From Leptotrichiaceae bacterium (lineage in GTDB: Bacteria > Fusobacteriota > Fusobacteriia > Fusobacteriales > Leptotrichiaceae): a stretch of 30,057 bases of DNA. Positions 132 through 17,303 of this stretch are shown one piece after another. Under the pieces are notes generated by a model. That model did not search any database. It saw nothing but the letters and a program-made list of their open reading frames with translations, and had not been told where the DNA came from. Numbering within the stretch: the stretch's first letter is position 1; the number at the start of each line of letters is the position of its first letter. The translations under genes were made by a program, and so were the position numbers. The stretch is from positions 1 to 30,057 of the forward strand of contig JAUNKI010000001.1 of the NCBI GenBank assembly GCA_030532815.1, given 5' to 3'.

Positions 132-1700
132 TTATTTCTTCATAAATCTTTTATATGCACTTTCCTGAATTTTTTCAGCTTTCATCAATCCTATATCATC
201 CAGTCTTTTTATATACATATCCCAGTCCTTATCCACATCAGATACTCCCATTATCCATTTTTGGGACATTTCTTCCACGTAGGAATTTAACTGAGTATTT
301 ATTTTAATAAATTCCTTTGATTCTTCCTTAGTATATTTCAATATAGGCATTAATTCATGTACATAATTATTTTTAAGGTAAAAATCTATGGCATCGACAG
401 CTTCTTTTACATACCACTGTTTTTCATACTCGGAGTCCTGAGGCATTCCCAGTCTGAACTGAGCTCCCGATTCCCTTATTACTGCAAGAGGTGTCTTACC
501 TTCAGGATTTTTCATTATTTTATCAGTAAATACAGCTTTTCCGTCTACTACAGTATAGTCATCTCCTTCGATACCGAAATTCCATAATCTTCTTCCTTCG
601 GGAGAATACCAGAAATCAAAGTATTTAACAGCTTCTATTGCATTTTTGGATTTTGAGCTTATTCCCCAGCCGCCTAAATATGTAGTTCTTGCCTGATACG
701 TTTTATTATCTCCGTTAAAAACGGGAGGGGCTATTATCCCGAAATTAAATCCTGGTATTGTCTTATCCAGTTTTCCGTTATAGGAGCTTGTGCTTCCGAA
801 CCAATCTACGGTAAATCCTCCCAAATTATTGGAAAGCATATAGTCCCTTGCGGAAATTCCCCTTGTAAAAATTTCTTTATCTATAAGACCTTCTTTATAC
901 CATTTTGCAAGCTGTTTCATAGCCTCTTTGTATTCTGCCTGTGCAGGCCCGAATTTTACCGTATCATTACTGTCGTACCAGAAAGCTCTCGCTTTAAATA
1001 TATCAGCCAGAGGTTGTAAAACCTTTGCCACAGTATCTCCTCTACTGAATATCGCTACTTCATCTTTTTTCCCGTTACCGTTAGGATCCTTTTCAGTGAA
1101 TGCCATGAGGACATCATGTAATTCTTCAACAGTTTTAGGTTCCTGTAATCCTAATTTCTGTATCCAGTCCTTTCTTATATAATACCCTGTCGAAGGCATA
1201 AAATTAAAATAGTCGTAATAATTCGGTATCATATATATATGTCCGTCGGCGGCAACGGCATCCTGTTTATATCTCGGATTTTCCTCCCAGAATTTTTTTA
1301 TGTTCGGAGCATACTTATCTATGAGTTCCTCTAACGGAATAAGTCCTCCGTCTATTCCCAGACTTTCAAGATCTTCAGTAAATTCATAAGCTACTATATC
1401 AGGAAGCTCTCCTGAAGATACAAGAAGGTTATATGCTTCTTTCTGGTCTGTCTGATTTTGAGAAGCTACATTTTTCAGCTTAATGTTAGTCATCTCAGCT
1501 GCTTTTTTATAAATGGGAAGTTCAGGATCCAGAGCTTTCCCCAGATGAATTGCAAAAACAGTCAGTTCCTTAGGTTTCTCCGATATAAGGTGACCCTCGA
1601 GTTTCTTATCTTCCCCTTTAATTTCAGTTTTTTCTTTCGGTTTTCCGCAGGCACTCAATAAAACTGCCATGATTATTAATGTATAAACAACCTTCTTCAT
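132..1700 (-). CDS. ABC transporter solute-binding lipoprotein (GAG/oligosaccharide type), paralogue B
   Basis: This is a 522-residue extracellular sugar-binding protein, lipid-anchored and expected in the periplasm. The N-terminus is a lipoprotein signal with lipobox LLSAC, giving lipidated Cys18. Residues 205-214 read DPNGNGKKDE, an EF-hand-like calcium loop typical of the large alginate and GAG binding proteins (AlgQ2, and Smon0123 of Streptobacillus moniliformis). It is strikingly similar throughout to the protein at 8497-10059, including DNA runs of 50 and 44 identical bases. It is the last gene of the minus-strand locus, 61 bp downstream of the family-8 lyase gene and far from the permeases. 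It probably delivers a related ligand to the same permeases, or acts as an alternative receptor. Family assignment is firm. The ligand (unsaturated GAG disaccharide) is inferred from context. Confidence 0.93.
   Translation of the reverse strand: MKKVVYTLIIMAVLLSACGKPKEKTEIKGEDKKLEGHLISEKPKELTVFAIHLGKALDPELPIYKKAAEMTNIKLKNVASQNQTDQKEAYNLLVSSGELPDIVAYEFTEDLESLGIDGGLIPLEELIDKYAPNIKKFWEENPRYKQDAVAADGHIYMIPNYYDYFNFMPSTGYYIRKDWIQKLGLQEPKTVEELHDVLMAFTEKDPNGNGKKDEVAIFSRGDTVAKVLQPLADIFKARAFWYDSNDTVKFGPAQAEYKEAMKQLAKWYKEGLIDKEIFTRGISARDYMLSNNLGGFTVDWFGSTSSYNGKLDKTIPGFNFGIIAPPVFNGDNKTYQARTTYLGGWGISSKSKNAIEAVKYFDFWYSPEGRRLWNFGIEGDDYTVVDGKAVFTDKIMKNPEGKTPLAVIRESGAQFRLGMPQDSEYEKQWYVKEAVDAIDFYLKNNYVHELMPILKYTKEESKEFIKINTQLNSYVEEMSQKWIMGVSDVDKDWDMYIKRLDDIGLMKAEKIQESAYKRFMKK
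571..620. repeat. 50-bp direct repeat within lipoprotein paralogues, copy 1
   Basis: This 50-base stretch is identical to 8930-8979, same orientation, 8.36 kb away. A second identical run of 44 bases occurs at 1258-1301 and 9617-9660. Both lie inside the two paralogous binding-protein genes and encode conserved segments. Confidence 0.9.
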
Positions 1701-1761: not shown

Positions 1762-4131
1762 TTAAATTCTTTTCAAATTTATAATTACAGATTGTCCTCT
1801 GTTTACAAGATTAATTTTCAGTTTTGTCTTTCCGTTTCCGACATTTATCTTTACAGCCTGACTGCTTGATAAAAGTGAATATTCTCCGTCTATTTCCAGC
1901 TCCGTTTCATATTTTGAAAGTTGCGTGGGATCACTTACTGCAAGGGTAATTCCATCTCCTTTTTCGGTTTTTATAAGTGAAACAGGAGAAAAGACCTTTA
2001 TTCCGTTTACTTTTACTTCCTTATTTTTCCAGAAATTCATTCCGGTAATTTTTCTTTTCTTATCTTCTATTGCGTGAACTTCATCATCCAGACGAATAAT
2101 TTCCACAGTATTTTCGTTATATTTTTCCACTTCTTCTTCAGTAAACATCGGTAATATTATATATGCATATTTGGAATTTTTAGGATTTTTTCCGTGTTCG
2201 ATATACGCTTTAAAATACGCTTTTTCATGTATATCTGCTGATTTCCCTCCGATTTCCTTCCAGCTTCCCTTTTCATTTTTAATATCCACTGTAAGAATAG
2301 AAGGTTCCAATATTTTATAGCCTATATTTTCACCTGTTTTTTGGTCTGTAAAGTTAATATATGTTCCTTTTTTCGCCTGTATTTTCTTTATCGAAGTGAC
2401 ATTCTGTCTGTCAATTGTCACTTTTTTATCATTTGTATTATGTATTATTCTGTTATCCAGCGTTGTATGAATTTCATCGTCACTGCTTGTTATTCCCGAA
2501 CCTACGGCTATAATTTCTTCACCGAGCATAAACCATGATTTTTTAGCTTCAGTCTTATTATTCCATGATATGAAGTCCATTCCTGTCATTGCCGTATTTC
2601 CGTCTGTAGCTCCCCCTGCCCATGCTTTGGGAGAAACAGCCGAAGGTACTCTTCTTTCTCCTGAACCGTCAGCTCTTTTTGAAATGCTTTCAGTAGTTCC
2701 CGGCATATGAAGTTTATCCGCAGTCTGCCAATAATCGGTAAAAGCTGAAGAATCAGTACCGTAAATATACGTCATTCCGTCCCCCGTATACCAGCCTTTT
2801 AAATTTTCTCCGTTCATCGTTTCAAAATTTGCTATTCTCGAAGAATGCATTGAAATTACAAACTTTCCTTTTCTTCTGCTTACCTGAACGGCTCTGTCCA
2901 TTGAAGAAAAAATCTTCGTACCATGAATTTCCTCTATATTTATATTATTATCATTGACAATATCTTTCAGTACTTTTTCGACAACCAGATTTCCCGTTTT
3001 TTCGGTAACACTGTAACTGTTATTTTCGGCTATGGCTCTTTTTACTAATTTCTGTATCTCTTCCTTATGAGGGGATACTGCTCCTTCAGATACCATACCG
3101 AATGCTCCTATAAGAGATCTTCCTCTTTCCAGATCGTTGGAATTATCCCTTGACAGTGATCTTCCGCTTACCGAGTCATTTATTCCTCCGTTTATGAGTA
3201 AATAAGTATATCCTTTGATTATGGAGCCGTACAGCGTTTCCAGTCTCGGATCTTTCGGCAGAAAGGAAGTATCCTTTGCAACATACAGCAAAGTTCCCAG
3301 CCCATTAAACAGAACACTTGCATATGTTCCGCTGTAAGCTACATTTTCATGCTGAATAAAGGAACCGTCTTCATAAAAACCGTCTCCTTTAGTTACTATT
3401 TCTCCTATATCACCTACTGCATCTATGCCGTTCATTGTTTCCGTCCTGTCTTTTGTCAGTATCCCTCTTCCGAAGGAGATAATCGCAGTATCCATTCTGT
3501 TTCCTCCTTTGGATATCCGTTTATTAGGAGATGTAGAATACTTTGCAGCAGGACTTGCACCTGAATGAGTAGCATAAGGTTGAAAATATTTTGAAGCTTT
3601 CATCAGATTATCAAGAAGGTCGTCAGGAATTTCTCCGTACATGATTATTCCCGTTTCATTTATGCTTTTAGGAATACCTATTTCCCACTGCCACCAGTTT
3701 CCGAGTTCCTGTAAACTGTCATTATAGACATTTTCATTAAGCCAGATAAGTGATTCAATTATATTTTTCTTTAAATCATCACTTTTATAATATTTTGTAC
3801 CGTCTGTAAAGTAGGCTTTTACCAATGTTTTTACATTTTCAAATGCACTTAATATCTGTGCTCCGTTTTTCATATCTTTCAAATCATCGAATATATACTG
3901 TCTATTCGGATCCGTATTTAACTTTCCGAGTATTTTCTCACTGTTTTTTTCCAACTGCGTAGTGATTTTTTCTATTTTCTGCCTGTTCTGAATATTATTT
4001 CCGTCAGGCATATTTATAATGATTTTTCTCCATTTTTCCCTTATCCCGTCAAATTCATCATTTCCGACTGAAGCTGCAGAAATAAAAGTCATCATTATCA
4101 ATCCTGCGAATATTGCATTTTTTACAATCAT
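1762..4131 (-). CDS. Polysaccharide lyase family 8 (hyaluronan/chondroitin lyase type)
   Basis: This 789-residue secreted lyase cleaves uronic-acid polysaccharides by beta-elimination, leaving a 4,5-unsaturated uronate. Residues 1-20 are a Sec signal peptide with no lipobox. The alpha-toroid domain carries NWWQWEIG (145-152), then GGNRMD with the expected catalytic Asn211. Next is DGSFIQHENVAYSGTY (255-270), giving His261 and catalytic Tyr270, followed by GRSLSR (323-328) with the conserved arginines. Residues from about 390 onward match the beta-sandwich part of the family, and the length is normal for PL8. A good ribosome site (GGAGG) precedes the chosen ATG. The gene lies 12 bp downstream of the autotransporter gene. 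KduI, KduD and GAG-type binding proteins in the same locus favour hyaluronan or chondroitin over xanthan as substrate. Exact substrate is not visible. Confidence 0.93.
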   Translation of the reverse strand: MIVKNAIFAGLIMMTFISAASVGNDEFDGIREKWRKIIINMPDGNNIQNRQKIEKITTQLEKNSEKILGKLNTDPNRQYIFDDLKDMKNGAQILSAFENVKTLVKAYFTDGTKYYKSDDLKKNIIESLIWLNENVYNDSLQELGNWWQWEIGIPKSINETGIIMYGEIPDDLLDNLMKASKYFQPYATHSGASPAAKYSTSPNKRISKGGNRMDTAIISFGRGILTKDRTETMNGIDAVGDIGEIVTKGDGFYEDGSFIQHENVAYSGTYASVLFNGLGTLLYVAKDTSFLPKDPRLETLYGSIIKGYTYLLINGGINDSVSGRSLSRDNSNDLERGRSLIGAFGMVSEGAVSPHKEEIQKLVKRAIAENNSYSVTEKTGNLVVEKVLKDIVNDNNINIEEIHGTKIFSSMDRAVQVSRRKGKFVISMHSSRIANFETMNGENLKGWYTGDGMTYIYGTDSSAFTDYWQTADKLHMPGTTESISKRADGSGERRVPSAVSPKAWAGGATDGNTAMTGMDFISWNNKTEAKKSWFMLGEEIIAVGSGITSSDDEIHTTLDNRIIHNTNDKKVTIDRQNVTSIKKIQAKKGTYINFTDQKTGENIGYKILEPSILTVDIKNEKGSWKEIGGKSADIHEKAYFKAYIEHGKNPKNSKYAYIILPMFTEEEVEKYNENTVEIIRLDDEVHAIEDKKRKITGMNFWKNKEVKVNGIKVFSPVSLIKTEKGDGITLAVSDPTQLSKYETELEIDGEYSLLSSSQAVKINVGNGKTKLKINLVNRGQSVIINLKRI

Positions 4132-4143
4132 AATTTCCTCCGT

Positions 4144-7100
4144 TTAAAAACTGTAATTTAATCCGATACTTTGTCTGAATATGTGATTTCCCGTTTTTTC
4201 ACCGAATTTACCGCTTTTTTCATCAGTATTCTTAACTTTTATATCGGATACGGACATCGAAACAAATACATTAAGTCCGGGAATTATATTTTTTGTATAC
4301 TTTATTCCGTATCTGTATTCATATGTTTCGGATTTTTTCTCTTTTGTTCCTGTTGTCTTATATACTGCACCTTTTCCCAAAGGCAGTCTCATGTCCAAAA
4401 CGACATTATCTCCATTTCCGAAATTGTACGTTATTGCAGGTCTCAGCTGTTCGGAAATATATCTTTCAACATTGTTTCTTTTGTCAAAAAATCTGTCTTC
4501 TCTGAAATACATCAGCTGCAATTTCCATTTGGGAGAAAATCCGTTATATACAAAACCGTACTGATTTTCCATTTTATAATCCTTCTGACCTTTTCTTTCT
4601 CCTTTATAATAAATATCCGCCATTCCTGTAGTTTTTCCGTTAAGGAAATATCCGTTCCCTAAATTATATGAAAAATTTGCGTCCAGTTTAAATTCATGAA
4701 AACCTGTTTTTGATACGTAATAATCCTTCTTCTTATAATTTTTGGGTCTTCGGGAATTTTCAGACTTATATCCGAAACTCAGACCGTAATTTCCCTTTGG
4801 AAAAGTATTTCTATATCTGATTTCTCCGAACAGACGGCTTGAAGAAACTTTATCTTCTCTGCCGTTTTTCCCCTGAAACATTCCGTTATCCTTGTAAAAT
4901 CCTTCAAAATAATAGGATATTTTTGACTTTGTATCTGTCAGTGTCAGCCATATTAACGGTTTATAATCTGAAGATTTGGAATAATCTCCTGCCGAAAGAA
5001 CATTTCCGTAATAATAGGATCTGTCCGAAGGATCTTCGGAATCAAGGGTAAATCCTACTGTTTTTCTCCATCTTGAAACTTTTTTACTGTTATTCAGTTT
5101 AGCCGCTATACTGTTCAGTATATTGTTTCTGAAAACGTCTCCCTTATATTCAAAACCTGCTTCTATCCTATCCGATTTATATTCTTTTCCTTTTGAATGT
5201 CTGTAATTTAAAGTCAGTGATAAATTTTCAGTCAAACCGAAAGCTAAATTTACATTATAGTAAAATATATTTTTCAGGTTTACGGATTTTACCTTATGTT
5301 CACTGCTAAGTCCCTGCAGTTTATAGTGCTTAAATTTGTTTACATTCCCTTTTTCAGTTTCAAAGCCTGCACCGAACCCCAGCCTGTAAACTCTGTTTAG
5401 AAATATTCCGTTTTTTTCTACATTTATTCCTATGTTCGGCTTCACGGAATTATAAGTTTTTTCATTTACAGGAACATTTTTTATTGTTAAATTACTTGCC
5501 TTTGCCGAAACTGTCTCCCTCTCTTCATTTATATTTCCCTGAAATATTTTTTTAAAATCAATTCCTGCATATATTGAAACTCTGAACATATTTCTTTCCA
5601 CAGGAGTATAAATTATTTTTGAACCTGCTCCTAAAACTATTACGGGATAGCTGGAATTAAAAGTATAGTTTTTATCGTTAATATTGATTTCCCTTTTAAC
5701 GGAATTATGGGAATATGCAGTTCCTATAGTAGTCAGAAAGGAAAGTTTGCTGTTTAAGGTATAATCATAATAACCTCCGAAATATACCGTATCCGTTTCG
5801 GCTTTTCCTCCGTTGTTCTTTTTAAAATCCAATGTTCCTTCGGAAGCACCGAAAATAAATCCGAGCCTGTTATTTCCCACTATGTGCTTTTCCCATATTC
5901 CTGCAATTCCCTTTTCCTTTTTTCCTGCATTTATTACACCTGAAAAATTTCCCGTATCATTTATATAAAATATATCATGAGTTGTGGAATTTAAAGGTCT
6001 GTTTCTCGTAATGTCTCTTGAAAAAGTTTTTTTCAGGCTTATTTTTTCAAACAGTCCGAAATTTATAATTGCCGAATCTGCAACATACCCATGGACAATT
6101 CCTGAAATCTGGGATAATACATCGTTAAAAACTTTCCTGTCTTTTAACTGCTCCATTTCTCCGATAATTTTATCCAGATCTCCTGATATCCTGTTTTTAT
6201 TCCTTTCATTTTCCAGATATTGTGCAAATTCGCTTAAATTAATGTTTCCGCTTACATCGGAATATCTGTTTTTACCGAGAATTACATCATTATTTTCTTT
6301 TTTTCTGTAAGTCCATACAAGACTGTCCTGAAATTCGGCTTCACTTCCGTCTACTTTTATTCCGCCTAAATACTCTGAAGCCGAAAATTCCTTTCCTTCA
6401 CCTTTAAAGGAGAGATTTGTCTTTCCTTTGAGTATTACTGCATTCCCATTGATATATATAGGGCTACTTTCCTTTTTATTTAAAGTGAGAACGGAATTTT
6501 CCAGTGTCAGAGTTCCCGACTGCCCGTTTATATACCCGTCTTTTATTAAACCCGTCTTCATTTTTTCTGTATAATTCTGTGCATTTTCACTGCTTTCCAA
6601 AGATATTTCCGAATTTCGGACAAATGAATTTCCGCTTAAGTTCAGTGAATTATATTTTTCAACAGTCAGTCCTTCAGCAACGGCATTTTCAAAAAATAGT
6701 GAATCAGTTCCGCTGTTTCCGATGATTTTCCCATTTATAGAAACGGCATTTTTCAATATAACCGTATTATCCGTTAAAGTTCTTGAAAATATTGCATTTC
6801 CCGATTTATCTCCGATAATTTTTCCGCCGTCATTTATAAAAACGGCATTTCCGAGCTGCACTCCCGTCGCTTTTTCAGTTTTTAATATTATTTCTCCTTT
6901 ATTTACTGAGATACCGTTTTTATCCGTTTTTATTCCGATACCTTCATTTACATATATTTTTCCCGTTCCTGAATTTATTCCGAATGAGTTTTGGCTCACT
7001 GCTATTCCGGAAGAAAATTTTCCGCTCAGAATTTCTATTTCACCTTTATTTTCCACTGTCCCCGTCATTTGAGACACAGCAGCATTGGAAGTATTCCTTT

Positions 7101-8472
7101 CGTCTCCTCTGTGAATTATTCTTCCCTCATTTATAACGATGGAATTTTCTCCTGAAGCTTTAATTCCCGAAGTATATTTTTTGCCTTCCACTTCCACCGT
7201 TCCTGAGGATATGATTTCCCTGTTGTCATTTGCCTGTATTCCCGTACTTCTCTCTCCTGAAACAAATATATTTCCTTTATTTACTATAACGCCGTTATCA
7301 GATTTTTTCGTTTCTTTGGCTGCAATTATTCCTGTAGCTCCTTCTTCTACGAAAATATTGCCTGTTGCCGTATTTTCAAAATTCGCATTTCCTGCCGCCT
7401 GTACTCCGTAACTTTCTCCTTTAACGTTAATTACCTGATTATTGACTGTTTTTTCCATAGGAACCGTCGTTCTTTTCAATATATTTATTCCGACAGATTT
7501 TCCGTCTACATTTATAATTCCGTTATTTTCAAAGTTTCCTTTGGATATTACTCCTATTCCCGTACTGTCGACATTTATTTTTCCGAAATTGGCTGCACTT
7601 CCTTTTTCGTTATTTATAAATATTCCTTTTGAGTTGTATCCGCTGTAGGGATTTTTCCCTGTTCCGCTCACATTTACCGTTCCATAGTTTTCAAAGGAAT
7701 TTTTATCTTCGGAGTTTATATTTACTCCTATTGCTTCTGAGCCTGATGTAAGTTTTTCGTTGGAAAATACATTTATCTCTCCTTCATTTCTCAAAAACAT
7801 TTTATTTTCCAGAGAAACTCCCGTTGCTTTATCTTTTACTTCTATTATTCCGTTTCGAGTCGACAGTATATCGGCTTTTTTATTTTTATTCCCTGTTATT
7901 CCGACACTTCCCGTTCCCGTAACAGAAACTTTTCCGGAGTTTTCAAACTTCAAATCGTTAAAATTAAGGAATACACCTTTTGCCTTATTTTTGACGAAAA
8001 TATTTCCTGTATTTTGTATTTCCGCAGCATTCGTAACATTTATACCTGTCGCTTTCTTTCCTGAAATTTCAAGAATTCCTTCATTCCTGAATTTTCCCTT
8101 CTGTATGGAAACTCCTTCAAAATTAAAGCTGCTTTTATTAATTACTTTTATAATTCCCCGATTTATACTGAATTCATTAATTGATGTTCCTGAATTTATA
8201 TTTATAATTTTTCTGTTTTTATTTCCGGAATATTCGATATTTATGTTTACGGGATTATCCGTATCTTCTTCTCCGAGAAGTACGGCATATTTATTAGGCT
8301 GAATGCTTATTACCGTATCACTGTTCAAATCTCCCGGAGTTATAATATTTCCCGTTATACGGTAATTTTTTCTCGGATCCGCATTATTGTTCTGATCGGG
8401 ATAAAGTGTCGCATATATCTGATTATGCTTTAATATCGTTAAAAGTACAAAAATTATAAGCTTTTTTTTCAT
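4144..8472 (-). CDS. Autotransporter with beta-helix passenger and apparent second, OmpG-like porin barrel
   Basis: This is a 1442-residue outer-membrane protein. Residues 1-21 form a Sec signal ending in IYA. Residues about 25-780 are a passenger of degenerate repeats with a recurring core such as ENSGKVSV, ENNGIINV, ENYGTVNV and RNEGEINV followed by GI/GV, typical of a beta-helix. Residues about 785-825 are the helical linker seen before autotransporter barrels (LSQISGIVHGYVADS). Residues about 835-1114 fit a classical 12-strand barrel, with the entry segment GIWEKH at Trp860 and the end at GFEYKGDVF (Phe1114). About 330 further residues follow (1115-1442). I count 14-15 amphipathic strands in them, ending in IGLNYSF, which resembles an OmpG/KdgM-type carbohydrate porin. 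The frame is uninterrupted. The gene sits between a binding-protein gene and the lyase gene, suggesting a role in capturing or admitting GAG fragments. The autotransporter call is firm. The porin half is inferred from strand pattern only. Confidence 0.85.
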   Translation of the reverse strand: MKKKLIIFVLLTILKHNQIYATLYPDQNNNADPRKNYRITGNIITPGDLNSDTVISIQPNKYAVLLGEEDTDNPVNINIEYSGNKNRKIININSGTSINEFSINRGIIKVINKSSFNFEGVSIQKGKFRNEGILEISGKKATGINVTNAAEIQNTGNIFVKNKAKGVFLNFNDLKFENSGKVSVTGTGSVGITGNKNKKADILSTRNGIIEVKDKATGVSLENKMFLRNEGEINVFSNEKLTSGSEAIGVNINSEDKNSFENYGTVNVSGTGKNPYSGYNSKGIFINNEKGSAANFGKINVDSTGIGVISKGNFENNGIINVDGKSVGINILKRTTVPMEKTVNNQVINVKGESYGVQAAGNANFENTATGNIFVEEGATGIIAAKETKKSDNGVIVNKGNIFVSGERSTGIQANDNREIISSGTVEVEGKKYTSGIKASGENSIVINEGRIIHRGDERNTSNAAVSQMTGTVENKGEIEILSGKFSSGIAVSQNSFGINSGTGKIYVNEGIGIKTDKNGISVNKGEIILKTEKATGVQLGNAVFINDGGKIIGDKSGNAIFSRTLTDNTVILKNAVSINGKIIGNSGTDSLFFENAVAEGLTVEKYNSLNLSGNSFVRNSEISLESSENAQNYTEKMKTGLIKDGYINGQSGTLTLENSVLTLNKKESSPIYINGNAVILKGKTNLSFKGEGKEFSASEYLGGIKVDGSEAEFQDSLVWTYRKKENNDVILGKNRYSDVSGNINLSEFAQYLENERNKNRISGDLDKIIGEMEQLKDRKVFNDVLSQISGIVHGYVADSAIINFGLFEKISLKKTFSRDITRNRPLNSTTHDIFYINDTGNFSGVINAGKKEKGIAGIWEKHIVGNNRLGFIFGASEGTLDFKKNNGGKAETDTVYFGGYYDYTLNSKLSFLTTIGTAYSHNSVKREININDKNYTFNSSYPVIVLGAGSKIIYTPVERNMFRVSIYAGIDFKKIFQGNINEERETVSAKASNLTIKNVPVNEKTYNSVKPNIGINVEKNGIFLNRVYRLGFGAGFETEKGNVNKFKHYKLQGLSSEHKVKSVNLKNIFYYNVNLAFGLTENLSLTLNYRHSKGKEYKSDRIEAGFEYKGDVFRNNILNSIAAKLNNSKKVSRWRKTVGFTLDSEDPSDRSYYYGNVLSAGDYSKSSDYKPLIWLTLTDTKSKISYYFEGFYKDNGMFQGKNGREDKVSSSRLFGEIRYRNTFPKGNYGLSFGYKSENSRRPKNYKKKDYYVSKTGFHEFKLDANFSYNLGNGYFLNGKTTGMADIYYKGERKGQKDYKMENQYGFVYNGFSPKWKLQLMYFREDRFFDKRNNVERYISEQLRPAITYNFGNGDNVVLDMRLPLGKGAVYKTTGTKEKKSETYEYRYGIKYTKNIIPGLNVFVSMSVSDIKVKNTDEKSGKFGEKTGNHIFRQSIGLNYSF

Positions 8473-8496: not shown

Positions 8497-10059
8497 TTAT
8501 TTCTTCATAAATCTTATATAAGCCGTTTTCTGGATTTCTTCAGCTCTTTTCAGTCCTATTTCATTTAATCTTTTTATATAATTGTCCCAGTCTTTTTCCA
8601 CATCTGAAACTCCCATTATCCATTTTTGAGTCATTTCTTCGGTATATGCTCTTAACTGTGTATCTATTTTCAGAAATTCCTTTGCTTCTTCTTTTGTATA
8701 TTTCAGAATAGGCAGATCATCCTGAATTACATCGGAACTTATGTACATATCCACACCGTTATTCTGTCCTGACAGCTGTTTTTCCGCCTCTGCGTCCTGA
8801 AACATCCCCAATCTGTACTGTGCACCTGTAGTTCTTATTACTGCCAAAGGATTTTTCCCCTGAGGATCTTTTAATATTTTATCGGTAAATACAGGTTTTC
8901 CATCCACCATTTTATAATCTTCGCCTTCTATACCGAAATTCCATAATCTTCTTCCTTCGGGAGAATACCAGAAATCAAAATATTTTATAAGTTCGACAGG
9001 ATTTTTTGCGGCAGACGTTATCCCCCAGCCTCCGATATATGTAGGTCTCGTAAAAATAGTCTTATTATTTCCCTTATATTCAGGAGGCAGAATAGGTGAA
9101 AAATCAAATCCCGATATTTTTGAAGCCAATTTTTCATTATAGGAAGCCGTACTTGCAAACCAGTCATTAGTAAATCCTCCCAAATCGTTTGAAAGCATAT
9201 AGTCACGGGAATTCATTCCTCTTGTAAATATTTCCTTGTCTATAAGTCCTTCCTTATACCATTTTGCCAGCTGTATCATAGCCTCTTTGTATTCCTGACC
9301 GGCAGGTCCGAACTGAGGATTTCCCTTATCGTCATACCATACGACTTTAGCTTTGAATATATCCGCCAGTCCCATCATTATTTTTCTTATTACATTTCCT
9401 CTCAGAAAAACAGGTATTTCATCCTTTTTTCCGTTTCCGTTAGGATCCTTATCTCTGAAAGCCGTAAGTACATTATATAACTCGTCGGCTGTTTTAGGTT
9501 CCTGAAGATTGAGTTTTTTCAGCCAGTCTTTTCTTATAAAATAACCTTGAGTTGTTTTCAGGTTAAAATAATCGTTATAATTAGGTATCATGTATATATG
9601 CCCGTCAGCTGCAACTGCATCCTGTTTATATCTCGGATTTTCCTCCCAGAATTTTTTTATATTGGGAGCATGCTTGTCTATTAAATCTTCAAGGGGTATA
9701 AGCCCTCCTTCCATTCCTAAATTCTCAAAATCCGAAACAAGCTCATAAGCTATAATATCAGGCAGTTTCCCTGAAGACAGCATCAAGTTGAATCCCTGCA
9801 CTTCGTCACTCTGATTTTTTGAAGCTACACTTACAAGCTTTATATTTGTTTCTTCAAAAGCTTTTTTGAAAACAGGCAGTTCCCCGTCTATGGCTTTTCC
9901 CTGAAAAATGGCAAATACGGTTACTTCTCTCGGTTTTGATGTTATAAGGTTTCCTGATAATTTTCCTCCTCCTTCGGATGAGGAAGATTTTTCATTTTTA
10001 CAGCTTAATAAAGCAGATAAACAGATTAATACTAAAAACAACACTTTTTTTAATTTCAT
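8497..10059 (-). CDS. ABC transporter solute-binding lipoprotein (GAG/oligosaccharide type), paralogue A
   Basis: This 520-residue periplasmic lipoprotein has a signal ending in the lipobox LLSC, giving lipidated Cys20. The family-1 binding-protein fold includes the EF-hand-like calcium loop DPNGNGKKDE at 205-214, as in AlgQ2 and the fusobacterial GAG receptor Smon0123. It lies 35 bp downstream of the LplC-type permease gene and 24 bp upstream of the autotransporter gene, so it is the probable primary receptor of this importer. The C-terminus is nearly the same as in the paralogue at 132-1700 (both end IRFMKK or KRFMKK). The pair recalls AlgQ1/AlgQ2, where two receptors serve one permease complex. 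Role in GAG disaccharide uptake is inferred from family and neighbours. Confidence 0.94.
   Translation of the reverse strand: MKLKKVLFLVLICLSALLSCKNEKSSSSEGGGKLSGNLITSKPREVTVFAIFQGKAIDGELPVFKKAFEETNIKLVSVASKNQSDEVQGFNLMLSSGKLPDIIAYELVSDFENLGMEGGLIPLEDLIDKHAPNIKKFWEENPRYKQDAVAADGHIYMIPNYNDYFNLKTTQGYFIRKDWLKKLNLQEPKTADELYNVLTAFRDKDPNGNGKKDEIPVFLRGNVIRKIMMGLADIFKAKVVWYDDKGNPQFGPAGQEYKEAMIQLAKWYKEGLIDKEIFTRGMNSRDYMLSNDLGGFTNDWFASTASYNEKLASKISGFDFSPILPPEYKGNNKTIFTRPTYIGGWGITSAAKNPVELIKYFDFWYSPEGRRLWNFGIEGEDYKMVDGKPVFTDKILKDPQGKNPLAVIRTTGAQYRLGMFQDAEAEKQLSGQNNGVDMYISSDVIQDDLPILKYTKEEAKEFLKIDTQLRAYTEEMTQKWIMGVSDVEKDWDNYIKRLNEIGLKRAEEIQKTAYIRFMKK
8930..8979. repeat. 50-bp direct repeat within lipoprotein paralogues, copy 2
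   Basis: Identical to 571-620. Homologous exchange between the two would delete the lyase and autotransporter genes and leave a single hybrid binding-protein gene. Confidence 0.9.
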
Positions 10060-10094: not shown

Positions 10095-10973
10095 CTATCC
10101 TTTTACAGCTCCTATGGCAACTCCCTTTTTAAAGAATTTCTGGATAAAAGGGTATATAAGCAATATAGGTATCAGTGACAATACTATTACGGCATATATT
10201 ACAGTCTGAGGCGAAGTCAGACTTTCAGGTGTTATAAGCTGTGTCGCTTCTCCTGCAAGATTTTTTTCAACTATCAGTTTTTTCAGGAACACCTGCAAAG
10301 GTGCTTTCGTATCATCAGTCAGCAGCACCATTGTCCAGAAATATCCGTTCCAACGGGATATTGCATAAAATAATGAAACCGTAGTTATTGCAGATGTGGA
10401 TAAAGGCAGATATATGTTCGTCATTATTTTTAAATGAGAAGCTCCGTCTATTCTTGCCGATTCTTCAAGAGATTTCGGAACTGCTTCAAAAAATGTCTTT
10501 AAAATTATAACGTTGAATGTATTTACCGCAAATCCGAGAATTATTCCCGCATAACTGTTTATAAGTCCCAAATCCCTGAAATTGAGATATTTCGGTATCA
10601 TTCCGGGATCGAACCACATTGTTGCCACTACAAGCATTATTATGGTTTTCCTGAATTTCAGTTCAGGTTTTGATAGTACATATGCTCCGCTTATTGTAAA
10701 AATCATGCTTACTGCCGTTCCTACAACAGTTATGAATATTGAATTTCCGTAAGCCCTCCATATTCCCGGAATTGCTGCGGCACTTTTAAATGCTTCAAAA
10801 TTAAATCCTTTGGGAAATAATGTGACAGCTCCCGTTTCTATAAAATAAGGTTTACTGAACGAAGCTGAAAACACGTATATTATCGGGTATAAAAACATTA
10901 CGGCAAAAACAGCAAGTAAAATATAATTTAATGTATAAAATATTTTTTCGTCCATTCCCATTTTTATTTTCAT
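10095..10973 (-). CDS. Carbohydrate ABC transporter permease, LplC/YtcP type
   Basis: This is a 292-residue inner-membrane permease of the binding-protein-dependent transport family. About six hydrophobic segments are visible, the first at residues about 13-37. The cytoplasmic EAA loop, which contacts the ATPase, reads EESARIDGAS (170-179) and is followed by the usual hydrophobic stretch. The C-terminus (FIQKFFKKGVAIGAVKG) is characteristic of the LplC/YtcP subgroup. It pairs with the LplB-type permease upstream, but an unusually long 255-bp gap separates the two. The binding protein follows 35 bp downstream. No ATPase gene is in the window, so a shared MsmX/UgpC-like ATPase encoded elsewhere is expected. 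By homology with the S. moniliformis Smon0121-0123 importer, GAG disaccharides are the likely cargo. Confidence 0.93.
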   Translation of the reverse strand: MKIKMGMDEKIFYTLNYILLAVFAVMFLYPIIYVFSASFSKPYFIETGAVTLFPKGFNFEAFKSAAAIPGIWRAYGNSIFITVVGTAVSMIFTISGAYVLSKPELKFRKTIIMLVVATMWFDPGMIPKYLNFRDLGLINSYAGIILGFAVNTFNVIILKTFFEAVPKSLEESARIDGASHLKIMTNIYLPLSTSAITTVSLFYAISRWNGYFWTMVLLTDDTKAPLQVFLKKLIVEKNLAGEATQLITPESLTSPQTVIYAVIVLSLIPILLIYPFIQKFFKKGVAIGAVKG

Positions 10974-11228: not shown

Positions 11229-12143
11229 TTACCATAAACTTGAACTCGATACTTTCTTACTCCATTTATTTGCACTGTATACAAGTAGGAATCCTACCAA
11301 CGCATTAAACAGCCCCACTGCCGTCGCAAGACCGAAATTCTGCTGAAGCATTCCCGTTCTGTATACGTATGTACTTATAACGTCCGCTGTGGAATAAGTG
11401 GCAGGCTGATAAAGAAGCAGAACAGTTTCAAAAGCTACATTCAGCATGCTTCCGACTTTTAAGACTAACATTATGACAATAGTAGGGATTATTCCCGGTA
11501 TTGTTATATATCTTAATTGTTTGAATTTATCCGCTCCGTCAATTTTAGCCGCTTCATAAAGCTGTTCATCTATAGTCGTAAGGGCTGCCAAATATATGAC
11601 TGCATTAAATCCCGTATTTTTCCATATGTTCAATCCTGTAAATATACCTCTGAAATATTCCGGCTTGGACAGAAAATATATTTTTTCCATTCCGATTTTT
11701 TCAAGTAAAAAATTTATTACTCCCGTACTCGGTGATAAAATATTTATTGTAATTCCTGCTGCGACAACTATCGCTATAAAATAAGGAATAAAGGAAGCTG
11801 TCTGAACAAAAGATTTGAACAGTTTATTTTTTACTTCATTCAGCATCAGTGCCACCATAATCGCAAAAGGAAATTCCAGAAACAGGCTGTACAGATTTAT
11901 CATAAGAGTATTTTTCAATGTTACGTAAAAGTAGGGACTTGTCAGAAATTCAGTAAAATTTTTAAACCCTACCCAGTCACTTCCTGAAATTCCCTTGAAC
12001 AGGCTGTAGTCCTTAAAAGCTATTATAAGCCCGTACATAGGTTTGTACATGAATATCGCATACCATAAAATAAAAGGCAATAGTAACAGATATAATGAAA
12101 TCTGGTCTTTATTGAATTTTGAAGTTTTTCTTTTTGCCTTCAT
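11229..12143 (-). CDS. Carbohydrate ABC transporter permease, LplB/YteP type
   Basis: This 304-residue inner-membrane permease has a short basic N-terminus, then LPFILWYAIFMYKPMYG (22-38), the typical start of the LplB/YteP subgroup. The EAA loop is EAAKIDGAD (197-205) followed by KFKQLRYITIPGI. It ends in a hydrophobic segment and a basic tail (NKWSKKVSSSSLW). A strong ribosome site (AAGGAGG) precedes the ATG. It should form the heterodimeric channel with the LplC-type protein at 10095-10973. The gene is 250 bp downstream of kduI, and that gap may hold a separate promoter. Confidence 0.93.
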   Translation of the reverse strand: MKAKRKTSKFNKDQISLYLLLLPFILWYAIFMYKPMYGLIIAFKDYSLFKGISGSDWVGFKNFTEFLTSPYFYVTLKNTLMINLYSLFLEFPFAIMVALMLNEVKNKLFKSFVQTASFIPYFIAIVVAAGITINILSPSTGVINFLLEKIGMEKIYFLSKPEYFRGIFTGLNIWKNTGFNAVIYLAALTTIDEQLYEAAKIDGADKFKQLRYITIPGIIPTIVIMLVLKVGSMLNVAFETVLLLYQPATYSTADVISTYVYRTGMLQQNFGLATAVGLFNALVGFLLVYSANKWSKKVSSSSLW

Positions 12144-12393: not shown

Positions 12394-13230
12394 TTATTTT
12401 AGTTCCGACATTTTTACGGCGTCCATATCATTAAATTCCTGATTTTCTCCTACCATTCCCCATATAAATGTGTAACTGCTCGTACCTGCCCCTGAATGTA
12501 TCGACCATGAAGGTGAAATTACACCCTGTTCATTTTTCACTACCAAATGTCTTGTTTCTTCAGGTTCTCCCATTAAATGAAAAACTCTCGTATCTTCAGC
12601 CATATTAAAGTAAAAATATACTTCCATTCTTCTTTCATGAGTATGACAAGGCATAGTATTCCATACATTTCCCGGTTCAAGCACTGTCATTCCCATTAAA
12701 AGCTGACATGACTGACATACGGCAGGATGTACAAACTGATATATCGTTCTTGAGTTGGAATTTTCCATACTCCCTAATTTTACGGGATTCGCTTTTTCTA
12801 TATCTATTTTTACATTAGGATATTTTTTATGTGCAGGGGCTGAGTTTATATAATATTTTGCAGGATTTTCCTGATTATCGGACATAAATTTCAGTTCTCT
12901 TGTTTCCATTCCTACATATAGTCCGTCACGAGAGTTCATTATATACTCCGTACCGTCAGCTATTATTTTTCCACTTCCTCCTACATTTATTATTCCCATT
13001 TCCCTTCTTTCAAGGAAATATTCTGTTCCTAATTCTTTTGTTATTCCCAGTTCCACGATTTTATCCGCAGGCATTATTCCTCCCGCTATGATTCTGTCCG
13101 CGTGGGAATAGGTAAAATTCACTTCATTCGGTACAAATATTGTTTCTATTAAATAATTTTCTCTTAGTTTCTCCGTTGTATAATATTTTGAATCTTTCGG
13201 ATGATTTGCATATCTTATATCCATTTTCAT
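12394..13230 (-). CDS. kduI: 5-dehydro-4-deoxy-D-glucuronate isomerase
   Basis: This 278-residue cytoplasmic cupin enzyme isomerises 4-deoxy-L-threo-5-hexosulose uronate, which forms spontaneously from the unsaturated uronate released by lyases, to 3-deoxy-D-glycero-2,5-hexodiulosonate. The zinc site of the family is intact: His196 and His198 in CHTHERRMEVYFYF, Glu203, and His245 in SIHSG. Length equals the usual 276-280. A strong ribosome site (CAGGAGG) precedes the ATG. It follows kduD by 69 bp, and together they form the route from unsaturated uronate to KDG. In fusobacterial GAG loci the same pair is called DhuI/DhuD. Confidence 0.97.
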   Translation of the reverse strand: MKMDIRYANHPKDSKYYTTEKLRENYLIETIFVPNEVNFTYSHADRIIAGGIMPADKIVELGITKELGTEYFLERREMGIINVGGSGKIIADGTEYIMNSRDGLYVGMETRELKFMSDNQENPAKYYINSAPAHKKYPNVKIDIEKANPVKLGSMENSNSRTIYQFVHPAVCQSCQLLMGMTVLEPGNVWNTMPCHTHERRMEVYFYFNMAEDTRVFHLMGEPEETRHLVVKNEQGVISPSWSIHSGAGTSSYTFIWGMVGENQEFNDMDAVKMSELK

Positions 13231-13299: not shown

Positions 13300-14070
13300 C
13301 TATCTCGACAACCATGCTCCGTCCACTGTCAGGACATGCCCGTTTATATAATCTGAAGCCTTACCTGCCAGAAATACTACGGCTCCCATTAAGTCCGAAG
13401 GTTCTCCCCATCTTCCGGCAGGTATTCTTCCGAGTATTTCTCTGTTTCTCTGTTCGTCTTTCCTTATCGGTTCCGTATTTGCAGTTTTTATGTAACCGGG
13501 AGCTATGGCATTTACCTGTATATTCCTATCGGCAAGTTCATTTGCAAACGCCCTTGTAAGTCCTACAACTCCATGCTTGCTTGCAGTATAGGGAGGTACA
13601 AACTTTCCTCCCTGAAAGGACAGCATTGAAGCTATATTTATAATCTTTCCGCTTCCCTGAACCGCCATTACTTTTGCAACTTCCCTTCCGAGATGATATA
13701 CGGCATTGAGATTTATATCCATTACCGCATACCAGTCTTCATCTTCATATTCAAGTAAGGGAGCTCTTCTTATAGTTCCCGCATTATTTACGAGAATATC
13801 TATTTTACCGAATTTTTCCATACATGTTTCCACTATTTCGTGTCTGCACTTGGGATTAGTCAGATCCCCTGTGATAAATTCAACTCTCCTTCCTGTTTTT
13901 TCAATAATATTCTTTATTTCTTCGTAATTTTTGTCATAAGCTGCTATTACCAGATCAGCTCCCGCTTCTGCCAGAGCTTGGGAATATGCGGCTCCTATTC
14001 CTGTATTTCCTCCTGTTACTATGGCAACTTTATTTTCCAGAGAAAAATACTCTTTTAAAAATCCGTTCAT
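13300..14070 (-). CDS. kduD: 2-dehydro-3-deoxy-D-gluconate 5-dehydrogenase (SDR)
   Basis: This 256-residue classical short-chain dehydrogenase reduces 3-deoxy-D-glycero-2,5-hexodiulosonate to KDG with NAD(P)H. The Rossmann motif TGGNTGIG spans 19-26, NNAG follows near 95-98, and the catalytic residues are Ser148, Tyr161 and Lys165 (YTASK). The C-terminal VDGAWLSR is typical of KduD. It is the first gene of the long minus-strand locus, with a 743-bp divergent intergenic region upstream, so the promoter should lie there. KduI immediately downstream fixes the assignment over generic gluconate dehydrogenases. Confidence 0.96.
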   Translation of the reverse strand: MNGFLKEYFSLENKVAIVTGGNTGIGAAYSQALAEAGADLVIAAYDKNYEEIKNIIEKTGRRVEFITGDLTNPKCRHEIVETCMEKFGKIDILVNNAGTIRRAPLLEYEDEDWYAVMDINLNAVYHLGREVAKVMAVQGSGKIINIASMLSFQGGKFVPPYTASKHGVVGLTRAFANELADRNIQVNAIAPGYIKTANTEPIRKDEQRNREILGRIPAGRWGEPSDLMGAVVFLAGKASDYINGHVLTVDGAWLSR

Positions 14071-14813: not shown

Positions 14814-17303
14814 ATGTTTCTAAAAAAGACAGACAGATTGGCATTAGTTGATTTTGAAAACAGACATATCAACTATACTGAATTGATACAGAATATTAAG
14901 TATTATTCAGAAAATATAATCGAACTGGCATCTGAAAAATTTGCACTGATTTTAATGGAAAACCGTACTGAGTGGATATACAGTTTTTTTGCAATATGGG
15001 ATAAGAAATCTGCACCTATTACAATAGATTCAGCCAGTAATCCGAAAGAAATACTCTATGTTCTTGAAGATTCCAATCCTGAACTGATTATTTGTTCTGA
15101 TGAAACTGAAAAAAATGTATTGGAAGCGATTTCATCATACAGCTTAAAAGATAAAATAAAAATAATAAATGTAGACAGGCACTCCATTGAAAATGAAAAA
15201 CTCGAGCTCATAAAAAGCAGCGATTTTGAACTGAAAAACCCCGACAATGAAGATACGGCAGTAATGCTCTATACTTCAGGAACTACAGGGCAGCCTAAGG
15301 GAGTAATGCTCACATATAACAATCTGAATACTGAAATGGACGGAATATTCGCAAAAAATATATTTACCTGTGAAGATCAGATACTGGCTTTACTGCCGTT
15401 TCACCATATTTTACCTTTAACTGCAACGGTTCTGTTAATGATGAGGGAACAGACATCTGTTGTATTTGTGGAAAAAATAGCGAGCAAAGAAATCCTTGAA
15501 ACACTTGGCAGAAACAGAGTAACAGCTCTTATCGGAGTACCGAGAGTCTTTAAACTTTTTTATGATGGAATAAAACAGCAGATAGATGCTAAATTTATTA
15601 CAAGGCTTATATATAAAATTATGAGCAAAACAAAATCCATGAAACTTAAAAAGAAAGTATTCAAAAAAGTTCATGATAAATTTGGAGGACATCTTAATTT
15701 TATAGTTTCGGGAGGTGCCAAACTGGATCCTGAAATAGCTGAATTTTACGAAACTTTAGGAATATATTCCCTTGAAGGGTACGGTCTGACCGAAACTTCT
15801 CCTGTAATAGCCGTAAATACCCAAAAAGAAAGAAAAATAGGAACTGTAGGGAAAAAACTCGAAAATATAGAAGTAAAACTGGTAGAAGAGGAATTATGGG
15901 TAAAAGGGCCTATAGTTATGAAAGGCTATTACAATAAGCCTGACAAGACAGCTGAAGTAATGACTGATGACGGCTGGTTCAAAACAGGTGACCTTGCATC
16001 TATTGATAATGAAGGATATATTACGATACGTGGAAGGAAAAACAGCATGATAGTTCTTTCAAATGGTAAAAACATTGATCCTGAAACAATTGAAAACAAA
16101 GTTGTAGCAAAAAGCAATTATTTAATAAAAGAAATTGGTGTATTCGGTCATAATGACAAAATTTCAGCAATTATCGTTCCTGAACTTCTGGAATTCAGAA
16201 AAAAAGGAATTACAAATATTAATGCCTATATTAAAAATATAATAGAAGACTACAACCTGACAGTTCATAATTATGAAAAAATACTTGATTACAAACTGTA
16301 TGAAGAAGAATTGCCGAAAACAAGAATAGGAAAAATAAGAAGATTTATGCTTCCGAATCTGTATGAAAAAAATATTACGGAAAAAAAGAAAGTTGAAGAA
16401 CCTGATACTGAAACATACAGAATATTAAAATCATATGTGAAAAAACTGAAAGGAATAGAGCCTTTACCTGAAGAAAATCTGGAACTGGAAATAGGTATGG
16501 ATTCACTCGATATAGTAGAACTTTTTGCATACATAGAAAATAGTTTCGGAATAGTACTGAATGAGGAACAGTTTTCAGAAATGCCTAATTTAAAAACATT
16601 ATCCGAATATGTTAATGAAAAAGCAACAAAAATGGAAGATGCCGAAGTTGACTGGAAAAAAATCATTGAAGAAGCTCCGCAGGTTGAAGAAAGAAACAGA
16701 TGGCTTACTAAAATACTTCGTCCTTTACTGGATTTGATTTTAAAAGTATATTTCAGACTAAAAAGAGTAAACAGAGATAAAATTACAAGTAAACAGCAGA
16801 TATTCGTAGCAAATCATCAGAGTTTTGTCGACTCTCTTGTACTTGGAAGTCTGCTACCTCATAAAATACTATATAACACAATGTTTTTAGCTATTGACTG
16901 GTATTTTAAAAAAGGAATTATGAAACTTTTTGTAACTAACGGAAATGTCGTTTTAATTGATATAAATAAAAATATAAAGAAAAGTGTAGAAGAAATAGCG
17001 GCACATGTAAAAGCAGGAAAAAATGTCCTTATATTTCCTGAAGGAGCCAGAACAAAAGACGGGAAAGTCGGGAAATTTAAAAAAGTATTTGCAATAATAG
17101 CAAAGGAACTCAATGTCGATATACAATGTTTAGGCATAAAAGGAGCCTACGAAGCCTATTCAAGACATATGAAGTTTCCTAAACCTAAAAAAATTGAAGT
17201 AGCTGCATTGGAAAGATTTAAGCCTGAAGGAACATACGAAGAAATTGTAGAAAAAGCTGAAAACATTATACGTGAATATGTAGAAAACGATAAACAAATA
17301 TAA
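14814..17303 (+). CDS. AMP-dependent acyl ligase / acyl carrier / PlsC-type acyltransferase fusion
   Basis: This 829-residue protein has three domains. Residues about 1-510 form an adenylate-forming acyl ligase with P-loop YTSGTTGQPKG at 153-163, GYGLTE (about 320) and the GWFKTGD motif (about 387). Residues about 540-615 form an acyl-carrier domain, with GMDSLD giving Ser564 as the phosphopantetheine site. Residues about 640-829 form a 1-acylglycerol-phosphate acyltransferase domain, with the catalytic NHQSFVD block (His668, Asp673) and FPEGART from 741. It plausibly activates a fatty acid, holds it on its own carrier domain and transfers it to a lysophospholipid, by analogy with the bifunctional Aas enzyme of E. 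coli. The built-in carrier domain differs from Aas. It is monocistronic and unrelated to the flanking sugar genes. Confidence 0.9.
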   Translation: MFLKKTDRLALVDFENRHINYTELIQNIKYYSENIIELASEKFALILMENRTEWIYSFFAIWDKKSAPITIDSASNPKEILYVLEDSNPELIICSDETEKNVLEAISSYSLKDKIKIINVDRHSIENEKLELIKSSDFELKNPDNEDTAVMLYTSGTTGQPKGVMLTYNNLNTEMDGIFAKNIFTCEDQILALLPFHHILPLTATVLLMMREQTSVVFVEKIASKEILETLGRNRVTALIGVPRVFKLFYDGIKQQIDAKFITRLIYKIMSKTKSMKLKKKVFKKVHDKFGGHLNFIVSGGAKLDPEIAEFYETLGIYSLEGYGLTETSPVIAVNTQKERKIGTVGKKLENIEVKLVEEELWVKGPIVMKGYYNKPDKTAEVMTDDGWFKTGDLASIDNEGYITIRGRKNSMIVLSNGKNIDPETIENKVVAKSNYLIKEIGVFGHNDKISAIIVPELLEFRKKGITNINAYIKNIIEDYNLTVHNYEKILDYKLYEEELPKTRIGKIRRFMLPNLYEKNITEKKKVEEPDTETYRILKSYVKKLKGIEPLPEENLELEIGMDSLDIVELFAYIENSFGIVLNEEQFSEMPNLKTLSEYVNEKATKMEDAEVDWKKIIEEAPQVEERNRWLTKILRPLLDLILKVYFRLKRVNRDKITSKQQIFVANHQSFVDSLVLGSLLPHKILYNTMFLAIDWYFKKGIMKLFVTNGNVVLIDINKNIKKSVEEIAAHVKAGKNVLIFPEGARTKDGKVGKFKKVFAIIAKELNVDIQCLGIKGAYEAYSRHMKFPKPKKIEVAALERFKPEGTYEEIVEKAENIIREYVENDKQI

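Follow-up and report, generated by a model that had tools for sequence, protein, structure and literature searches.

A 1442-codon gene in a Leptotrichiaceae bacterium raises the question of why an autotransporter should carry a second outer-membrane barrel and stand beside a polysaccharide lyase. The gene lies in the window, by which we mean the whole stretch of 30,057 nucleotides that was analyzed (GenBank assembly GCA_030532815.1, contig JAUNKI010000001.1, positions 1 to 30,057 of the forward strand). The original prediction was that its product joins a passenger-displaying autotransporter to a sugar porin in a glycosaminoglycan uptake locus. On balance, the two-barrel protein is probably the pore through which glycosaminoglycans cross the outer membrane during uptake, acting with the lyase encoded downstream; we infer both the substrate and the transport.

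Domain Layout and Predicted Structure

The gene and its parts are as follows.

4144..8472, minus strand: two-barrel autotransporter gene, 1442 amino acids, one reading frame open for 1442 codons; fusion conserved
8410..8472, minus strand: likely signal peptide, residues ~1-21, by eye from the sequence
6235..8409, minus strand: passenger, residues ~22-746, in which the motif N-x-G-x-[IVL] recurs (12 copies counted), from the sequence
6022..6234, minus strand: helical linker, residues ~747-817, predicted to enter the first barrel (AlphaFold2 model)
5143..5985, minus strand: first barrel, residues ~830-1110, 12 predicted strands, autotransporter type (model)
5071..5142, minus strand: inter-barrel linker, residues ~1111-1134 (model; topology inferred)
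4147..5070, minus strand: second barrel, residues ~1135-1442, 14 predicted strands, CymA/OmpG-like fold (model and superposition)

The features of a type Va autotransporter are present: a signal peptide (by eye), a passenger, a predicted helical linker and a 12-strand barrel that matches PF03797. The match in the Pfam scan, at residues 862-1090, scores 58.1 bits against a cut-off of 26. Unlike the type Va rule, the barrel is not at the extreme C terminus, and 352 residues follow the match. Of the two halves, for which separate family searches had been proposed, the first gave PF03797 and the second nothing. For residues 1115-1442 (P0002), nothing was found in Pfam to E=1, the OmpG-type and KdgM families included, or in NCBIfam to 0.01, and a profile of the second domain produced only chance matches to PDB sequences.

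The AlphaFold2 model covers residues 743-1442. Strands were counted from the DSSP list, excluding four strands of only 4 residues. Helices fall within 747-817, followed by 12 long strands within 830-1110 and 14 strands within 1135-1441, which agrees with the helical linker, the barrel end near residue 1114 and the 14-15 later strands first read from the sequence. In the predicted model, the first barrel superposes on the autotransporter translocators NalP and EstA, with the NalP alignment starting inside the helical linker; together with the PF03797 match, this bears out the assignment of the barrel to the autotransporter type. The second barrel superposes on CymA and OmpG, sugar channels with 14 strands. 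Each half fits a complete closed reference barrel in both models, which points to two separate barrels. As originally proposed, the chain is predicted to form two closed barrels, here counted at 12 and 14 strands. Since both strand numbers are even, the linker between the barrels would be periplasmic.

Across the 15 rows of the alignment, there are 8-14 inward arginines per sequence in the 14-strand barrel versus 1-5 in the first. Four of them (R1213, R1344, R1362 and R1387), which strand parity places in the lumen, are invariant in these rows and also in 45/45 sequences of a wider alignment, which contains many near-copies and excludes the protein P0041 (see below). KdgM and NanC, which take up acidic sugars, have basic lumens. 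The arginine-rich lumen predicted for barrel 2 is a hint, not proof, of an anionic substrate.

The Extension in Related Bacteria

The extra length beyond a standard autotransporter was compared with the autotransporters of relatives. Seven related genomes gave 65 autotransporter matches, from which 30 loci were compared; the remaining 35 comprise 7 members of the two-barrel family, recognized by position, and 28 that fell outside the comparison. The chain ends 19-33 residues past the Pfam match in 27/30 loci. The sole tail of more than 300 residues among the 30 (332) belongs to a two-barrel family member. Autotransporters of loci L098 and L104 have tails of 157 and 165 residues past the barrel match, which we take, from the motif, to resemble OmpA-type peptidoglycan-binding domains. 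Two other autotransporters of the bacterium's own genome end 20 residues past the match and a third leaves its contig. The barrel 2 extension is not ordinary for autotransporters of related bacteria.

A profile search with the second domain covered 98 Fusobacteriota genomes, the bacterium's own included, and found the second barrel in 13 of them, in 15 genes with no internal stops. Two of these genes (L043 and L044, both from genome G072) are cut by short contigs, and L015 begins at a contig end. Within its own family, the fusion is kept in 3/33 genomes, all from one genus; whether Leptotrichiaceae homologs retain it or encode the halves apart had been raised as a check. An earlier search had found 9/60 genomes positive, counting the bacterium's own and including six more distant ones. 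In the protein database, 38 proteins of 1167-2186 residues carry the second domain at full coverage; source names of homologs include Leptotrichia sp., Fusobacterium sp. and Cetobacterium sp.

Barrel 1 is also present in 44/45 homologs (44 from three protein searches, plus P0042 from L040). The exception, P0041, is a 392-residue protein with the second barrel but without barrel 1. It could represent a fragment or a genuine stand-alone barrel; a fragment is possible because the gene is on a contig of 4190 bases. A direct repeat is seen by eye near its end. Separate encoding of the two halves was rejected as a general form: P0041 was the only stand-alone case, and the genome searches, two genes cut by contig ends aside, showed no other.

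The Passenger and a Natural Form That Lacks It

Ten uncut genes encode a passenger, which is repeat-rich and ranges from 444 to 1293 residues. Identity of the window protein to L013 is 71% in the passenger, 70% in barrel 1 and 74% in barrel 2; to L020 the values are 37%, 36% and 41%, and the contrast between passenger and barrels is drawn from these two comparisons only.

Loci L040 (genome G067) and L041 (G064) encode a 632-residue protein with no passenger, in which a signal peptide and a helix precede both barrels; the gene for the lyase, of polysaccharide lyase family 8 (PL8), follows 8 bp downstream. The 632-residue forms match the family profile with E values of 1.5e-20 and 5.3e-20. Their kinship, though distant, is clear, and is also seen in a profile comparison (probability 98.3%) and in 29% identity to a long member over 541 aligned columns that span both barrels. 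A database search that scored 7995 candidates sharing most words found a further five passenger-less proteins of 631-635 residues, one of which is labeled partial by its source. Because the passenger-less form keeps both barrels, we regard the barrel pair as the conserved core of the protein and the seat of its common function. It does so beside the lyase, which makes capture by the passenger at most an add-on. The passenger was central to the function first envisaged, and that part of the proposal is corrected accordingly. The passenger-less relatives offer a ready natural control for the role of the passenger.

The Lyase Partner and the Locus

The neighboring genes of the window are listed here; those from the solute-binding protein to KduD are upstream of the two-barrel gene.

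132..1700, minus strand: lipoprotein gene, 522 amino acids, its start similar to the solute-binding lipoprotein's; nothing above cut-off in Pfam
1762..4131, minus strand: PL8 lyase gene, 12 bp downstream of the two-barrel gene; signal peptide without a lipobox (by eye)
8497..10059, minus strand: solute-binding protein, lipoprotein by eye (PF01547)
10095..10973, minus strand: ATP-binding cassette (ABC) sugar permease (PF00528)
11229..12143, minus strand: ABC sugar permease (PF00528)
12394..13230, minus strand: KduI, 5-dehydro-4-deoxy-D-glucuronate isomerase, above the curated cut-off
13300..14070, minus strand: KduD, 2-dehydro-3-deoxy-D-gluconate 5-dehydrogenase, above the curated cut-off

The PL8, KduI/KduD and ABC genes support a locus of the uronate/glycosaminoglycan type, and KduI and KduD are consistent with uronate products of the lyase. 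The window lyase has three PL8 domains (PF08124, PF02278 and PF02884), and its family includes lyases of hyaluronate and chondroitin, sugars of animal connective tissue. Its best NCBIfam match, HylB, reaches 422 of 1350 bits, far below the cut-off. In the L013 locus, from the same genus as the window, a sulfatase (PF00884) and a GH88 unsaturated glucuronyl hydrolase are also encoded.

For 15/15 two-barrel genes, PL8 is the next gene, 8-26 bp downstream. PL8 occurs in 24/98 genomes, which include all 13 two-barrel genomes. Over 13 complete loci, barrel and lyase distances correlate with r 0.958 (0/10,000 permutations were as high), an agreement that is partly species kinship and to that extent counts against reading it as partnership. 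Two genomes of one genus, G048 (L017 and L018) and G072 (L043 and L044), each have two different two-barrel/lyase pairs, which perhaps serve different sulfation patterns or polymers. In G048, the barrel and lyase of L017 are both nearest to L042 (59% and 61%), and those of L018 are both nearest to L021 (73% and 78%). In each pair, barrel and lyase thus share one closest relative, which differs between the pairs. This is stronger evidence than the correlation, and it indicates that the genes are inherited together. The PL8 tree, in which long branches are flagged, needs 4 changes of the partner label (at least 3 by the starred branches). These changes contradict a single-clade origin of the partner-bearing lyases, and they imply that loss or exchange has occurred.

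In the lyases of three relatives (L015, L016 and L019), a cysteine stands close to where the signal peptide ends; no canonical lipobox was seen there by eye. One secretin match was found in each of 9 genomes searched, and the lyase may or may not take a type II route. A second PL8-type gene with no evident signal peptide is seen at L040:882-2810, L041:1040-2860 and L042:1593-3593, and may provide a further lyase step, likely cytoplasmic. At L075 (genome G037), a PL8 gene with a signal peptide and no two-barrel partner stands beside genes that read as phosphotransferase-like sugar genes; this case suggests that the two-barrel partner goes with the ABC-type locus. On the opposite strand of the window, at 14814-17303 (plus), a gene for an 829-residue chain with AMP-binding, acyl-carrier and acyltransferase domains (PF00501, PF00550 and PF01553) adjoins the uronate genes.

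Proposed Role and Alternatives

In the proposed entry system, the first barrel, plugged by the helical linker, would display the passenger on the cell surface, and the passenger may bind polymer there. The 14-strand arginine-rich barrel would pass anionic chains or fragments. The PL8 lyase would cut chains to unsaturated disaccharides on either side of the outer membrane, the solute-binding protein and ABC permeases would import the disaccharides into the cell, and KduI, KduD and sugar-acid enzymes would complete their breakdown there. A more specific version is a TonB-independent, single-chain importer in which the passenger captures the polymer, the barrel threads it inward and a periplasmic PL8 lyase cuts and pulls. 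We hold this version to be possible but doubtful. If it were true, the products would be kept private, Fusobacteriota would have a counterpart to SusCD and the passenger-less form would be a minimal version.

Several observations weigh against the entry pore. Confidence in the models is moderate, the underlying alignments are shallow (15-16 rows), the two models are not independent and they do not fix the relative placement of the barrels. FadL-type channels, which have 14 strands and carry hydrophobic compounds, match barrel 2 too, with lower Z (17-19). Inward and outward positions come from strand parity, not coordinates; the invariant R1324 was assigned outward, and the division into inward and outward faces is weak for the strand of R1344 and almost absent for strand 1400-1415. 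Acidic residues are also assigned to the lumen, namely the invariant E1302 and the near-invariant E1385 (D in 2/45). The net inward charge of barrel 2 is +3 to +13 and positive in 15/15 rows, but that of barrel 1 is also positive in 13/15 rows (range -5 to +7). Net charge was dropped as an argument for this reason, and only the number and invariance of the arginines were kept. In the locus, the best PDB score of the lyase is to a xanthan lyase (325 bits), with hyaluronate lyases not far below at 302 bits, and the PL8 family includes xanthan lyases. The two-barrel gene is lacking in 11/24 PL8 genomes. Further candidate porin genes exist: L021:5601-6623 (340 amino acids) matches Porin_OmpG_1_2 (PF16946) with 25.3 bits at a cut-off of 23, and L013:16975-18054 encodes a secreted 359-residue candidate porin with no Pfam match. 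The two-barrel protein therefore need not be the only entry.

Barrel 2 might instead be a structural or assembly appendage of a protein that is simply an adhesin, fastening the cell to the host matrix beside the lyase. The repeat-rich passenger of variable length, conserved, where present, about as well as barrel 1, would suit an adhesin. We nevertheless consider this unlikely, as barrel 2 has invariant lumen arginines, persists where the passenger is gone and, in the two comparisons made, is kept slightly better than either passenger or barrel 1. Somewhat less likely again is that the protein exports the PL8 lyase or docks it at the surface in a two-partner arrangement. The strict adjacency and paired inheritance of the genes, a first barrel of the secretion type and a lyase that carries a signal peptide but, by eye, lacks a canonical lipobox are what such an arrangement would show, but the importer predicts the same gene pairing equally. 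Moreover, the Pfam scan found no POTRA-type domain in the protein, and a CymA/OmpG-like barrel of 14 strands leaves too little room for a folded enzyme of ~790 residues.

Two alternatives concern the chain itself. The strand total of 26 equals that of LptD (PMC8592465) and would allow one large barrel. This is very improbable, as each half fits a closed reference barrel and whole-length fits to big single barrels are poor (template-modeling scores ~0.15-0.25, root-mean-square deviation ~20-25). The genome behind the window is a draft in 230 contigs, 82.5% complete, in which an assembly or annotation artifact could have fused two neighboring genes; a join near 5100-5140 had been named as the place to look. 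The same open fusion, without an internal stop, recurs in another assembly, where the second domain is 98% identical, and in a genome that is a single contig (74%); the 38 database proteins carry it as well. An assembly join is excluded on these grounds, and the artifact is refuted.

Comparison with Known Systems

The protein resembles type Va autotransporters (NalP, EstA and AIDA-I) in its 12-strand PF03797 barrel, helical linker and passenger, but here a second barrel domain follows. Barrel 2 is similar to CymA of Klebsiella oxytoca and OmpG of E. coli in its closed 14-strand predicted fold. It has no sequence match to them (Pfam, NCBIfam and PDB sequences), and both are stand-alone proteins. 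KdgM porins have 12 strands, compared with 14 in barrel 2, which has no KdgM match in Pfam. Of the OmpG/KdgM-type porin first suggested, the likeness to OmpG survives, for the predicted fold only, and the likeness to KdgM does not. The SusC/SusD importers of Bacteroidota are alike by analogy only, in that a surface part and an outer-membrane pore go with a lyase; in the window both parts are in one chain and glycan binding by the passenger is only putative. No TonB-dependent receptor was found by Pfam among ten window proteins scanned.

The glycosaminoglycan import system of Streptobacillus moniliformis (Smon0115-0128) shares PL8, KduI/KduD, a solute-binding protein and ABC permeases with the window locus, and its description assigns the outer-membrane step to "an unknown channel/transporter" (PMC5430744). 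Four genomes with a Streptobacillus-like order (PL8, next gene, GH88-sized gene; the GH88 test covered L076 only) have no second-barrel match and have a candidate of 684-760 residues instead. These proteins (L076:17596-19674, L078:1174-3228, L079:10051-12333 and L081:10080-12236) are encoded after the GH88-sized gene. Each has, by eye, a signal peptide and carries [KR]-Y-[TS]-W at the C terminus; Pfam scans of two of the four gave no match above cut-off. By gene order they would correspond to the "hypothetical" Smon0128, and they are candidates for the outer-membrane channel of that lineage. Smon0128-type proteins were considered as stand-alone relatives of barrel 2 and rejected at the sensitivity of the profile comparison (probability 0.7%). 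For the passage of host matrix polysaccharides across the outer membrane in Fusobacteriota, the two-barrel family provides a concrete candidate for the carriers.

Multi-barrel outer-membrane proteins are a published class (Solan et al., 2021, as cited in PMC11494523 and PMC8592465), and to that extent the suggestion that the architecture was undescribed is corrected. According to these two papers, the GfcD/YjbH proteins have two barrels per chain, and the first barrel of GfcD also has 12 strands; GfcD has a periplasmic alpha/beta domain between its barrels, a 13-strand second barrel and a place in a capsule operon. The window protein differs from GfcD in its autotransporter-type first barrel and in its catabolic locus. 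No description of an autotransporter-porin fusion was found at the level of titles and abstracts, a scope that does not cover the list in the 2021 multi-barrel survey (PMC8346858). The last strand of an autotransporter barrel is normally C-terminal, which makes the two-barrel chain a natural test of outer-membrane assembly. The architecture of an autotransporter with a CymA/OmpG-like channel looks new within the known multi-barrel class.

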